Positions 14,858 through 45,830 of a stretch of DNA of 64,000 nt are shown piece by piece. The stretch is from Pseudoclavibacter caeni (GTDB lineage Bacteria; Actinomycetota; Actinomycetes; Actinomycetales; Microbacteriaceae). The stretch covers positions 124,001-188,000 of the forward strand of contig NZ_WBKA01000003.1 of the NCBI RefSeq assembly GCF_008831125.1. Reading direction: 5' to 3'. Under the pieces are notes generated by a model. It saw only the letters and a program-made list of their open reading frames with translations. It searched no databases and had not been told where the DNA came from. A program made the translations under genes and the position numbers. Position 1 is the first letter of the stretch, and each line of letters begins with the position of its first letter.

Positions 14858-15946
14858 TCAGCGCAGCGGCTCGTGCTCCAGCGCCTGCTCGATCAGGTCG
14901 GTGATGAGCTCCCGATAGTGCAGGCCACTGGCCTCCCACAGCATCGGGAACATGGAGATCGGGGTGAACCCGGGGATCGTGTTGATCTCGTTGACCACGA
15001 CGCCATGCGCGGTGAGGAACACGTCGACCCGGGCGAGTCCCGAGCACTCCAGCGCCTCGAACGCGCGGCGGGCGACGTCGCGCAGCTCGGCGAGCTCGGC
15101 ATCGGTCACGTCGGCCGGGCACACCGTGCGGGCCGGGCTGTCGGCCAGGTATTTCGCGTCGAAGTCGTAGAACCCGTCGCCGTCGACGACGATCTCGCCG
15201 GCCACGGCGGAGACCCGCACCCCCGACCCGGAACGCGAGCCGAGCACGGCCATCTCGATCTCCCGGCCGTCCACCGCCGCCTCGACGAGTGCCTTGTCAT
15301 CCTCGGCGAACGCGACGCGCAGCGCCTCGTCCAGCTCCTCGGGCCGGGTGACCCGCGACACGCCGACGCTCGACCCGGCGCGGGCCGGTTTGACGAACAC
15401 CGGCCAGCCGAGTGGGGCGATGCGGTCGTCGATCGCGAGACGGTCGTCGTCGCGATGCACGACCGCGTACCGGCCGACGGCGATCCCCGCGGCGCCGAGC
15501 ACCGTCTTCGTGAACTCCTTGTCGGTGCCGAGTGCGGAGGCCATCACCCCGGAGCCGACGTACGGCAACCCGGACATCGCCAGCAGACCCTGGATCGTGC
15601 CATCCTCGCCGAACGGCCCGTGCAGCAGCGGCAGCACCACGTCGACCCGCCCGAGCGGGCGCAGCCCGCCCTCGGGTGTGACCGCGCGCAGCTCGTGCGA
15701 GCCGCCGCTGGGCCAGACCACCTCGGTGTCGGAGGGGGCGAGCTCCGGCAGCACGCCGTCAGCGAGCTGGAACCGGTCGGGGGCGTCCGGCTGCAGCACG
15801 AACCGGCCCCGGGCGGTGATGCCCACGGGCACGACGTCGTACCGGTCGCGATCGATCGCGCCGAGCACGCCGCCGGCGGTGGCCACGCTGATCGCGTGCT
15901 CGCTGGAGCGCCCGCCGAACACCACGGCGACCCTGGTCCTCGTCAT
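14858..15946 (-). CDS. ddl: D-alanine--D-alanine ligase
   Basis: 362 residues, ATP-grasp enzyme that joins two D-Ala for peptidoglycan precursors. N-terminal VVFGGRSSEHAISVATA, ATP-grasp core with VFVKPARAGSSVGVSRV, and C-terminal RVDVFLTAHGVVVNEINTIPGFTP (metal-binding Glu/Asn). Start overlaps the gpsA stop by 4 nt: last gene of the leuC-leuD-plsC-gpsA-ddl operon. Confidence 0.95.
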   Translation of the reverse strand: MTRTRVAVVFGGRSSEHAISVATAGGVLGAIDRDRYDVVPVGITARGRFVLQPDAPDRFQLADGVLPELAPSDTEVVWPSGGSHELRAVTPEGGLRPLGRVDVVLPLLHGPFGEDGTIQGLLAMSGLPYVGSGVMASALGTDKEFTKTVLGAAGIAVGRYAVVHRDDDRLAIDDRIAPLGWPVFVKPARAGSSVGVSRVTRPEELDEALRVAFAEDDKALVEAAVDGREIEMAVLGSRSGSGVRVSAVAGEIVVDGDGFYDFDAKYLADSPARTVCPADVTDAELAELRDVARRAFEALECSGLARVDVFLTAHGVVVNEINTIPGFTPISMFPMLWEASGLHYRELITDLIEQALEHEPLR

Positions 15947-16971
15947 CGCTGCCGTCCTCCTCCCGCCCTGGCGTCGGTCAGGACATCCTCGTTGCGCGGT
16001 GCGATGTGCACCGTGAGATCCGCTGGGTTCATTCTGCCTTCGAGCACGAGCGACACCTGCGAGACGATCGGCATGTCGACGCCGTGCTCGCGGGCGAGGT
16101 CGAGCACCGGGCGCACCGAGCCGATGCCCTCGGCCGTCTGCTGCATCCGCCGCACCACCTCGTCCAGCGGATGCCCCTCGCCGAGCAGGCGCCCGGCCGT
16201 GTGATTGCGCGAGAGGGTCGACTCGCAGGTGGCGATCAGGTCGCCGAGCCCGGCGAGGCCGGTCATCGTGTCAGGGTGACCGCCCAGCGCGACCGCGAAG
16301 CGGCTGATCTCGTCGAGGCCGCGGGTGATGATCGCCGCCTTCGTGTTCTCCCCGTAGCCGACCCCGCTGACGATGCCGACCGCGAGGGCGATGAGGTTCT
16401 TGAGCACGCCCCCGTACTCGGTGCCGATCACGTCGTCGTTGGCGAACGCGCTGAAGTAGCGGTTGGTGACGCAGGCGGCGATCCGCTCGGCCAGCGCGCC
16501 GTCGGCGCTCGCCACGGCGGCCGCGGCCGGCTGCTCGGCGGCGATCTCGCGGGCGATGTTCGGCCCGGAGAGCACGGCCACCCGCTCCGGCGCCCAGCCG
16601 AGCTCGCCGATGACGACCTCGCTCATGCGCAGCTGCGTGCCCCGTTCGAGCCCCTTGATCAGGCTCATGATCACCGCATCCCGCGGCAGCGCGTCGCGCA
16701 CCCCGGCGAGCACCGACCGCAGCCGCTGCGAGGGAACCGACAGGCACACCAGCTCGGCGCCGGCGAGCGCCCGGGCCGGGTCGGTCGTGGCGTGCAGGCT
16801 GGCCGGCAGCACCGTGCCCGGCAGGTAGTCGTCGTTGGCGTGGCGCACCTGGATGCCGGTGGCGATCTCGCGGCGACGGGCGAGCACGGTGGTCTCGCAC
16901 CCGGCGTCGGCGAGCACCTTCGCGAAGGTGGTGCCCCACGACCCCGCGCCGATCACGGCCGCCCGGGTCAT
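15943..16971 (-). CDS. gpsA: Glycerol-3-phosphate dehydrogenase (NAD(P)+)
   Basis: 342 residues from the ATG at 16971. The N-terminal Rossmann motif VIGAGSWGTTFAKVLA (5-20) binds NAD(P)H; the middle has SLIKGLE and LSGPNIAREIA; the C-terminal domain has VGYGENTKAAIITRGL with the catalytic Lys. Supplies sn-glycerol 3-phosphate for phospholipids. It overlaps plsC and ddl by 4 nt on each side, and its product is the substrate pool on which acyltransferases such as the neighbouring PlsC act. Confidence 0.95.
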   Translation of the reverse strand: MTRAAVIGAGSWGTTFAKVLADAGCETTVLARRREIATGIQVRHANDDYLPGTVLPASLHATTDPARALAGAELVCLSVPSQRLRSVLAGVRDALPRDAVIMSLIKGLERGTQLRMSEVVIGELGWAPERVAVLSGPNIAREIAAEQPAAAAVASADGALAERIAACVTNRYFSAFANDDVIGTEYGGVLKNLIALAVGIVSGVGYGENTKAAIITRGLDEISRFAVALGGHPDTMTGLAGLGDLIATCESTLSRNHTAGRLLGEGHPLDEVVRRMQQTAEGIGSVRPVLDLAREHGVDMPIVSQVSLVLEGRMNPADLTVHIAPRNEDVLTDARAGGGRQR

Positions 16972-17711
16972 CGTGCCCCCTCCGTGTCGGCGGTGGGGCG
17001 GTCGGGGCGCGGCCCGCGCAGCGTCTCGAGCAGTGCGGTGATCTCGCCCATGAGCTCGGCGGTCGCCCGCGCGTAGTCGGCGGAGTTGTGCAGATCCGCG
17101 TACCGCGACGCCGGGATCGGGTCGCCGACCTGGACGACGAACCGCTTGCGCGGCAGGATGTGCAGCCCCTTCCCATAGCGGGGCAGGATCTCCTGCGCGC
17201 CCCACTGGGCGACGGGCACGATCGGGCAGCCGGTCGCCTGTGCCAGCCGCACCGCCCCGCTCTTGCCGCGCATCGGCCACAGGTCGGGGTCGCGGGTGAG
17301 CGTGCCCTCGGGGTAGATCTGCACGGTCTGACCGCGTTCGAGCCACGCGCGGGCGTTGCGCAGCGAGTCACCGCCGTGGGCGTGCCGATCGACGGGGATC
17401 TGCTCGCCGTGCCGCATCACCCAGCCGACCACGGGGATGTGGAACAGCTGCTCCTTGGCCAGGAAGTGGGGCATGCGGCCGGCCTCCCACATGAAGCGAA
17501 TCATCAGCAGCGGGTCGAGCTTGGTGATGTGATTGGCCGCGAGGATGAACGGCCCGTCGGGCAGCCGGTCGACGTCGCGGAACTCGCTGCGCGCGAGCAC
17601 CTTGGTCAGCGGCACGACGACGGCGGCGACGCCCCGAGCCAGCGGGCCGAACTCGCTGCGGTCACGGCGGGCGGGCGACGAGGCGGGGGATGCGGGGGAA
17701 GGCTGGTTCAC
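16968..17711 (-). CDS. plsC: 1-acyl-sn-glycerol-3-phosphate acyltransferase (PlsC-like)
   Basis: 247 residues. HX4D motif in AANHITKLDPLL, EGTLTRD (third acyltransferase block) and the following VPVAQWGAQEI identify the LPLAT family. Makes phosphatidic acid at the membrane. It starts one nt after the leuD stop and overlaps gpsA by 4 nt. In many Micrococcales murA lies between leuD and plsC; here it is absent. Confidence 0.92.
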   Translation of the reverse strand: MNQPSPASPASSPARRDRSEFGPLARGVAAVVVPLTKVLARSEFRDVDRLPDGPFILAANHITKLDPLLMIRFMWEAGRMPHFLAKEQLFHIPVVGWVMRHGEQIPVDRHAHGGDSLRNARAWLERGQTVQIYPEGTLTRDPDLWPMRGKSGAVRLAQATGCPIVPVAQWGAQEILPRYGKGLHILPRKRFVVQVGDPIPASRYADLHNSADYARATAELMGEITALLETLRGPRPDRPTADTEGAR

Positions 17712-17712
17712 G

Positions 17713-18312
17713 TCACGACCTCGCCGACAGGGTGCGGGGCCGCCAGGCGGCCCGTCCGGCCTCGTAAGCGCTGATCGCGTCCTCGTGCTGCAGCGTCAGC
17801 GAGACGTCGTCGAGCCCCTCGAGCAGGCGATGCCGCACGTCGTCGTCGATCTGGAAGGAGAACTCCTCGTCGCCGACGATGAGCACCCGACGCTCGAGAT
17901 CGACGGTGCCCTCGCGGCCGGGGCGCTCGTCGACGAGCGCCCACACCCGCTCCACCTGCGTCTCGTCGAGCACGCCGGCGAGCAGACCCTGCTTGCCCGC
18001 GTTGCCGCGGAAGATGTCGCCGAATCGCGGCGAGAACACCGCGCGGAACCCGTAATCATGCAGCGCCCACACGGCGTGCTCGCGCGACGACCCCGTGCCG
18101 AAGTCGGGGCCGGCGACGAGGATGCGCGCCGGGGCGAACCGGGGATCGTTGAGCACGAAGTCGGGATCCTGCCGCCACCGCTCGAACAGCGCATCCTCGA
18201 AGCCGCTCTTCGTGACGCGCTTGAGGTATTTCGCGGGCAGGATCTGATCGGTGTCGACGTTCGAGCGATGCAGCGGCGCGATCACCGCGCTCATCGTCGT
18301 GAACCGCTCCAT
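17713..18312 (-). CDS. leuD: 3-isopropylmalate dehydratase small subunit
   Basis: 199 residues from the ATG at 18312. Aconitase swivel domain with [16 protein letters not shown] and [17 protein letters not shown]. Pairs with LeuC to isomerise isopropylmalate in leucine synthesis. The leuC TGA and leuD ATG share one base (TGATG). Confidence 0.96.
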
Positions 18313-19841
18313 CAGCGGGCCTCCTTCTCGGGGTTCGACGCGGACGCCGGGTGGAAGCCCCGACTGCCGACGAGCTCGACGGCGGTCATGCCGAGATCGG
18401 CCGGCGATGAGAGGGTGCCGCGCACCGCCGTGGCGGCGGCGACCAGCGGCGAGACCAGGTGGGTGCGGCCGCCGCGCCCCTGGCGTCCCTCGAAGTTGCG
18501 GTTCGAGGTCGATGCCGAGCGCTGGCCGGGCTGCAGCTGGTCGGGGTTCATGCCGAGGCACATCGAGCAGCCGGCGTGCCGCCACTCGGCGCCGAACGCC
18601 TCGAACACCCGGTCGAGGCCCTCCGCCTCGGCCTGAGCGCGCACCCGGGCCGAACCGGGCACGACCATGACGCGCACGCCGTCCGCCCGATGCCGGCCGG
18701 CCATGACCGAGGCGGCCTGGCGCAGATCCTCGATGCGGCCGTTCGTGCACGATCCGATGAACACCGTGTCGACGGCGATGTCACGCATCGGCGTGCCCGG
18801 CCGTAGGTCCATGTACTCGAGGGCACGGCGGGCCGTGGCCCGGTCGTTCTCGTCGGCGATCGCCTCGGGGTCGGGCACGGTCGCCGACAGCGGCACGCCC
18901 TGACCGGGGTTCGTGCCCCAGGTGACGAACGGCTCGAGCCGGTCGGCGTCGATGCGCACGACCCGGTCGAACTCCGCACCGTCATCGGTGTGCAGCGTGC
19001 GCCAGTAGGCGACCGCCGCATCCCAGTCCGCGCCGCGGGGGGCGTGCGGCCGCCCCTTGACGTATGCGAAGGTCGTCTCGTCGGGCGCGACCATGCCGGC
19101 CCGGGCGCCTGCCTCGATCGACATGTTGCAGATGGTCATGCGCCCCTCCATCGACAGGGCGCGGATGGCCGACCCACGGTATTCGATGATGTGCCCCTGG
19201 GCGCCGCCGGTGCCGATGCGGGCGATGACGGCGAGGATGATGTCCTTGGGCGTCACCCCCGGGCGCAGCGTGCCCTCGACCTCGACGGCCATCGTCTTGA
19301 ACGGTTTGAGCGCGAGGGTCTGCGTGGCGAGCACGTGCTCGACCTCGCTGGTGCCGATGCCCAGACCGATCGATCCAAACGCCCCATGGGTGGAGGTGTG
19401 CGAGTCGCCGCACACGATCGTCAGCCCCGGCATGGTCAGGCCCAGCTGGGGCCCGACGACGTGGACGATGCCCTGCTCGCGGTCGCCGAGCGAGTGCAGC
19501 CGGATGCCGAACTCCTTCGCGTTGCGGCGCAGGGTCTCGATCTGCAGCCGGCTGACGGGGTCGGCGATCGGCTGGTCGATGTGGTCGGTCGGGGTGTTGT
19601 GATCCTCGGTGGCGATCGTGAGGTCGGGGCGGCGGACGCGGCGGCCGCCCAGGCGCAGCCCGTCGAACGCCTGGGGACTGGTCACCTCGTGCAGCAGGTG
19701 CAGGTCGATGTACAGCAGGTCGGGCCCGCCGTTCTCGCCGCGACGGACGACGTGGGCATCCCAGAGCTTCTCGGCGAGGGTGCGGGGGCGATCGGCGAAC
19801 GCGGTTGCGGGTGCGTGCTGTGGTGCGTTGGTTGCGGACAT
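18312..19841 (-). CDS. leuC: 3-isopropylmalate dehydratase large subunit
   Basis: 509 residues. The three [4Fe-4S] ligands are visible in IGSCTNG and GCSMCLGM; catalytic region [13 protein letters not shown]. Acts with LeuD in the second step of leucine synthesis. First structural gene of the five-gene operon; preceded by a leucine-rich leader peptide and alternative hairpins, so amino-acid supply probably sets its expression. Start chosen at the ATG at 19841 behind AGAGGATC. Confidence 0.97.
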
Positions 19842-19908
19842 GATCCTCTGGGTGCCTCTCTCCTGTCGACGGCAGACCGTGGCGCGACTCCGCGGCGAGG
19901 CCGATCTG
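19842..19908 (-). promoter_or_regulatory. Leu attenuator: mutually exclusive RNA pairings before leuC
   Basis: On the minus strand CCGCGGCGAG (19930-19921, inside the leader peptide) is fully complementary to CTCGCCGCGG (19899-19890). Separately, CTCCTGTC (19920-19913, covering the Leu codons CTC CTG) is fully complementary to GACAGGAG (19867-19860), which belongs to a purine-rich stretch shortly before the leuC start. A ribosome waiting at the late Leu codons would free the purine-rich stretch; fast translation would let it be sequestered. Confidence 0.6.
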
Positions 19909-19959
19909 TCAGGACAGGAGCTCGCCGCGGCGACGAAGGAGGAGTCGACGGCAGTGCAT
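19909..19959 (-). CDS. leuL: Leucine leader peptide (16 aa)
   Basis: ATG at 19959, TGA at 19911-19909. Translation is [16 protein letters not shown]: five Leu in 16 residues, in the runs CTC CTC CTT and CTC CTG. The start lies 8 nt after TAGAAT (19973-19968), preceded by TG-N to give an extended -10, so the transcript would begin almost at the ATG. Leaderless leucine-rich leader peptides are known in front of actinobacterial leu genes; this one precedes leuCD. No homology search was possible. Confidence 0.7.
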
Positions 19960-20015
19960 GGTCTCTGATTCTACCACCGCCGGCGGCCGCCACTCAGACC
20001 GCCGGCCGCACCCGG

Positions 20016-42106: not shown

Positions 42107-42182
42107 TGGTGACCCCAGCGGGATTTGAACCCGCGTTACCGCCGTGAGAGGGCGATGTCCTAGGCCGCTAGACGATGGGGCC
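42107..42182 (-). tRNA. tRNA-Glu (anticodon CTC), CCA encoded
   Basis: Minus strand begins GGCCCCATCGTCTAGCGG; acceptor GGCCCCA pairs with TGGGGTC (one G-U), anticodon stem CGCC/GGCG around loop CTCTCAC, T-arm GCGGG-TTCAAAT-CCCGC. CCA occupies 42109-42107. Confidence 0.95.
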
Positions 42183-45758: not shown

Positions 45759-45830
45759 TGGGGTATGGTGTAATTGGCAACACGACGGTTTCTGGTACCG
45801 TTATTCTTGGTTCGAGTCCAGGTACCCCAG
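45759..45830 (+). tRNA. tRNA-Gln (anticodon CTG)
   Basis: Begins TGGGGTATGGTGTAATTGG; acceptor TGGGGTA pairs with TACCCCA, anticodon loop TTCTGGT between ACGGT-type arms gives CTG, T-arm CTTGG-TTCGAGT-CCAGG, discriminator G. CCA is not encoded. Confidence 0.95.

Follow-up and report, generated by a model that had tools for sequence, protein, structure and literature searches.

The leuC leader region of Pseudoclavibacter caeni lies on the minus strand of the 64,000-nucleotide stretch of DNA analysed here (the window), in the segment 19842-19975 singled out by a first-pass annotation. It is likely that the LEU element of actinobacteria occurs here in a second copy, linked to leuC and predicted from its sequence to place leuCD under leucine control by stalling of the ribosome on a leader peptide. 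As part of the same explanation, and with the same confidence, this element is taken to hold the place of the regulator LtbR/NdgR at leuCD in many Microbacteriaceae. The LEU element was described 5′ of leuA in actinobacteria, in a text that mentions neither leuB nor leuCD (Seliverstov et al., 2005, PMC1262725), and no earlier report of leuC leaders was found in the literature searched, with Lopatovskaya 2010, Neshat 2014 and Craster 1999 lying outside that search.

The leuC leader and its pairings

The leader precedes leuC (18312-19841, start at 19841; Aconitase PF00330, 3.5e-180), which is followed on the same minus strand by leuD (17713-18312), its start overlapping the leuC stop, plsC (16968-17711; Acyltransferase PF01553), gpsA (15943-16971) and ddl (14858-15946), the last reading as a D-Ala-D-Ala ligase with homologous ORFs that keep this order in relatives. 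In P. caeni plsC directly follows leuD (17711-17713), with most relatives having about 1.4 kb, probably murA, between the two. In the P. caeni genome the best murA-like match is on a different contig (G000:C7:75593-76885) and under the family cut-off. The sole above-threshold Rfam matches within the window are two tRNA genes (42110-42182 on the minus strand and 45759-45830 on the plus strand).

The leader ORF (19959-19909, minus strand) reads ATG CAC TGC CGT CGA CTC CTC CTT CGT CGC CGC GGC GAG CTC CTG TCC TGA, such that the 16-codon peptide with five Leu codons reported in the first-pass annotation is present, and its placement close to the predicted transcription start agrees with a -10-like box, TAGAAT (19968-19973, minus strand), ending 8 nt 5′ of the leader ATG. 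Transcription and translation of the leader are inferred to be leaderless, starting from the mRNA 5′ end. The Streptomyces lividans leader LeuL1 (MRFGLLLLSCRGEGL), 5′ of leuA, is transcribed leaderless from an experimentally mapped start and is without a typical terminator (PMC8079986). It resembles the Microbacteriaceae leaders in being a leaderless Leu-rich peptide (pattern MRFGLLLLSCRGEGL against the consensus MLFGLLLLSCRDES) but stands before leuA and has a mapped start, that of the window leader being predicted. In the wider set of elements the distance from the start codon to the conserved hairpin stem, helix A, is 29, 26 or 32 nt in 89/93, with TANNNT close to the start codon in 91/93 and gaps of 6-8 nt between the two in 86/93, against a background of 0.8% at arbitrary start codons, the TANNNT and gap figures being somewhat inflated by a bonus for a -10 box when the uORF start was picked.

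Leu codons 6-8 (CTC CTC CTT; 19936-19944, minus strand) are the counterpart of the Leu run conserved in these elements. CTT makes up 183/323 Leu-run codons (57%) against 110/3435 (3%) in the downstream genes, with a single position of the run being CTT in 92 of the 93 elements, which indicates selection on the nucleotides, through pairing or a rare codon, and not on the amino acid alone.

The hairpin claimed in the first-pass annotation between CCGCGGCGAG (19921-19930) and CTCGCCGCGG (19890-19899) is a perfect 10-bp match on the minus strand, conserved in relatives with covariation as helix A. When the leader was codon-shuffled and the downstream sequence shuffled, perfect matches of at least 10 between the ORF and the downstream leader arose in 0.8% of trials and those of at least 8 in 9.6%, so that the 10-bp helix is above chance by itself and the 8-bp pairing also claimed, between CTCCTGTC (19913-19920, minus strand; Leu14-Leu15) and GACAGGAG (19867-19860), is not. 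The latter match is perfect in the window but lineage-specific, and as a conserved switch this stem was rejected, the loop pairing with the Shine-Dalgarno (SD) region no better than with swapped or shuffled partners over 93 elements. That stem was how the first-pass account paired Leu codons with the sequence ahead of leuC; in the conserved pairing of this kind the main run, at codons 6-8 in P. caeni, takes part and not codons 14-16. The purine stretch GGAGAGAGG (19855-19863, minus strand) can form a base stem with the Leu run (19942-19935) with one bulge (RNAduplex -12.0 kcal/mol), and in the minimum free energy fold of the window leader CUCCU (19944-19940) is paired with AGGAG (19864-19860). 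AGAGGA (19844-19849, minus strand) is, from its sequence, the probable leuC Shine-Dalgarno. A pseudoknot that the earlier account lacked emerged from the comparative analysis, joining CAGATCG (19902-19908) in the helix A loop to CGGTCTG (19873-19879), both on the minus strand. The fold energy of the single leader is ordinary (z = -0.09) and as such uninformative, and evidence was therefore drawn from relatives.

LEU elements in relatives

Leader, -10 box and hairpin are found together 5′ of leuC in 23/34 Microbacteriaceae genomes as a shared block of TANNNT, 6-7 nt, a start codon, a peptide with the consensus MLFGLLLLSCRDES, a GCCGCGACGAG...CTCGTCGCGG hairpin, a purine-rich site and the gene. 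A covariance model, R1, built from 22 of the Microbacteriaceae leuC leaders, identified two strong copies in the P. caeni genome, one at leuC (63 bits) and one at leuA (60 bits), the latter beginning 127 nt 5′ of a 597-aa LeuA. R1 matches 145/150 Microbacteriaceae genomes, often twice (leuA and leuC), with the extra copies read in family genomes having more than two strong matches standing before second leuA genes. The second leuA paralogs (L200-L205, L248, L253, L262) have a LEU element of their own with a CCACGGCGGG-type helix, and weak extra matches (L207, L208, L209) have no leu gene downstream. Across the class R1 matches 156/198 genomes, with hits outside Microbacteriaceae mostly single and, of those inspected, mostly at leuA. 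The element stands 5′ of leuC in 19 of 80 named leuC loci, all 19 in Microbacteriaceae (Leifsonia, Microbacterium, Agromyces, Cryobacterium, Glaciibacter, Leucobacter, Rathayibacter, Terrimesophilobacter and one further member), with no leuC copy found outside the family among these 80 loci and the genomes surveyed. Upstream of leuC in one relative (L040, G020) there is a decayed-looking LEU element with the 5′ arm intact and the 3′ arm and leader broken.

The leucine leader with its helix A is thus conserved in close relatives, the point on which the first-pass annotation had staked its reading, and the covariation it had looked to is present in helix A. In an alignment of 99 elements that had been fitted to that helix, 99.2% of cells are paired with compensatory (two-sided) changes at five pairs, the covariation score being reached by 0/500 shuffles. 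In the pseudoknot, own partners pair better than swapped ones (z = 11.0), and the 99 sequences yield 63 different best helices, for example AACAGACC/GGTCTGTT, ACCGACC/GGTCGGT and CCCCGGC/GCCGGGG. The Leu run likewise pairs better with its own SD region than with swapped partners (z = 4.1 in the leuC set and 3.8 in the leuA set). The swap tests, for pseudoknot and Leu run alike, are uncorrected for phylogeny and use windows picked after the architecture was seen. A control pairing the Leu run with the region 3′ of helix A also outdid swapped partners in the leuC set and therefore sequence relatedness inflates the swap tests, the comparison with shuffled partners (-11.1 against -8.0 kcal/mol) being the firmer for this stem.

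The window copy has in common with the published LEU element (PMC1262725) a Leu-run ORF, a hairpin with a pseudoknot and no evident terminator, and shares a profile with the leuA leaders, in that R1 built on leuC leaders recovers leuA copies. The base stem between the Leu run and the ribosome-binding region, part of the published element and seen across relatives, has a possible counterpart in the window copy. This copy differs in standing before leuC and not leuA, a matter of descriptive context and not of structure, in having its candidate base stem further from the start codon and in an extra Leu-Leu near the peptide end. Rfam 15 yielded no family above the gathering threshold for the copies tested, relaxed E-values giving implausible matches alone.

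Mechanism and alternatives

In the proposed mechanism the leader would be translated from the extreme 5′ end of the mRNA. With ample leucine the ribosome would finish the leader and depart, allowing helix A, the pseudoknot and the base stem between the Leu run and the SD region to form, which would lower leuC translation. When leucyl-tRNA is scarce the ribosome would stall on the Leu run, masking it together with the helix A 5′ arm and freeing the leuC start region. Blocking the Leu run in silico raised mean SD accessibility in both sets, for leuC leaders from 0.35 to 0.49 (up in 37/49) and for leuA leaders from 0.33 to 0.43 (up in 34/44), average gains that are modest and come from a computation without pseudoknots. 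At P. caeni leuC the corresponding change was from 0.49 to 0.65. The pairing of the Leu run with the last 17-5 nt before the gene is 0.12 at P. caeni leuC versus 0.83 at the leuA copy, which reflects the placement of the base-stem partner (19864-19855) some 14-23 nt 5′ of the leuC ATG and thus 5′ of the probable SD, the separate AGAGGA being closer to the ATG. In these models, the leuC start of P. caeni may be blocked less strongly or less directly than that of leuA.

The first-pass annotation described the region as a ribosome-mediated attenuator of leuCD, of which the leucine leader at leuCD, conserved in close relatives, has stood. No intrinsic terminator was found in the leuC leader, with no U run after helix A, and given this and the lack of an Rfam match translation control of leuC by ribosome stalling is favoured. 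Attenuation of transcription, in which translating the leader would determine if RNA polymerase halts ahead of leuC, whether at a hairpin or by way of Rho, is improbable though to be taken seriously: the leader ORF does carry regulatory codons, as leader-peptide attenuators such as trp leaders carry codons for the pathway product, and Rho-dependent versions have been proposed for terminator-less actinobacterial cys leaders (PMC1262725). However, the leuC leader has neither a terminator/antiterminator pair nor a terminator-like site that could be found, and the Leu run has its conserved pairing with the ribosome-binding region, as fits translation control, so that the latter is the likelier.

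Somewhat less probable again is that the element is the binding site of a regulatory protein, proposed in 2005 as an ML1624-type helicase, with the Leu codons mattering only as RNA. Mutations in the Leu codons of S. coelicolor leuA are reported to have had effects inconsistent with classical attenuation, and a bound protein was proposed (PMC1262725), and both the compact conserved pseudoknot and the strong constraint on CTT are in keeping with it. Against this, leader codons vary with the operon. In six leuB-linked LEU-type elements of other actinobacterial families (L246, L251, L254, L257, L259 and L261, with L266-L270 being longer flanks) Val/Leu/Ile codons replace the Leu run (for example MRFVLILRCRDGA and MRSVFVLIDCRGEA), with an ilvE-type aminotransferase gene after leuB in the three cases checked, whereas those leuA leaders of these genomes that were read retain Leu runs. 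Leader codons thus seem, from sequence comparison, to track the amino acids that the operon produces, and the Val/Leu/Ile leaders at leuB-ilvE therefore support codon sensing; the leaderless start geometry is also retained, which likewise speaks against a protein site. A chance origin of both pairings and Leu codons in a GC-rich 5′ UTR, as the ordinary single-sequence fold energy and the frequency of 8-bp pairings in shuffles might suggest, is already refuted by conservation, covariation and the twin at leuA, and its probability is negligible.

Ribosome stalling on the leader, as preferred here, concerns leuC in the first place. The order leuC-leuD-(murA)-plsC-gpsA-ddl occurs in many families without an element at leuC, as gene-order comparison revealed, and, being wider than the LEU element, is not specific to leucine regulation. 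The further claim that lipid and cell-wall genes are tied to leucine supply is unsupported because the synteny reaches beyond the range of the element. Control of translation at leuC would not have to extend to the distal plsC, gpsA and ddl, although polarity may reach them.

LtbR/NdgR and the evolution of leuCD control

LtbR/NdgR is an IclR-type DNA-binding regulator, encoded adjacent to leuCD, that controls leuCD in other actinobacteria (PMC4340878). Its target, leuCD, is also the predicted target of the leader element in the window, but LtbR/NdgR is a DNA-binding protein and was detected in 0/36 Microbacteriaceae genomes at E<=1e-25, against 23/23 genomes in other families of the same order at that threshold. 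LtbR may have been lost only once and the element gained only once, their coincidence then amounting to one data point. A LeuC tree, weakly rooted and with one row mislabelled (L136, a duplicate of L026), requires 9 changes at most between gain and loss of the element and is compatible with one early gain followed by losses, a plausible history. A broader proposal, for and against which we judge the case about evenly balanced, is that the LEU element is a modular ribosome-stalling sensor that took over leuCD in Microbacteriaceae upon LtbR/NdgR loss and was re-coded to Val/Leu/Ile for leuB-ilvE elsewhere.

Known from computational work since 2005, the LEU element has had both leader attenuation and protein binding put forward as its mechanism and, matching no Rfam family in the searches run, would merit a family of its own. 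The leuC copy, in a family with no detected regulator, together with the re-coded leuB-ilvE leaders provides natural codon-swap comparisons that make the mechanism testable, and the leuC copies suggest that an RNA switch has replaced a transcription factor.
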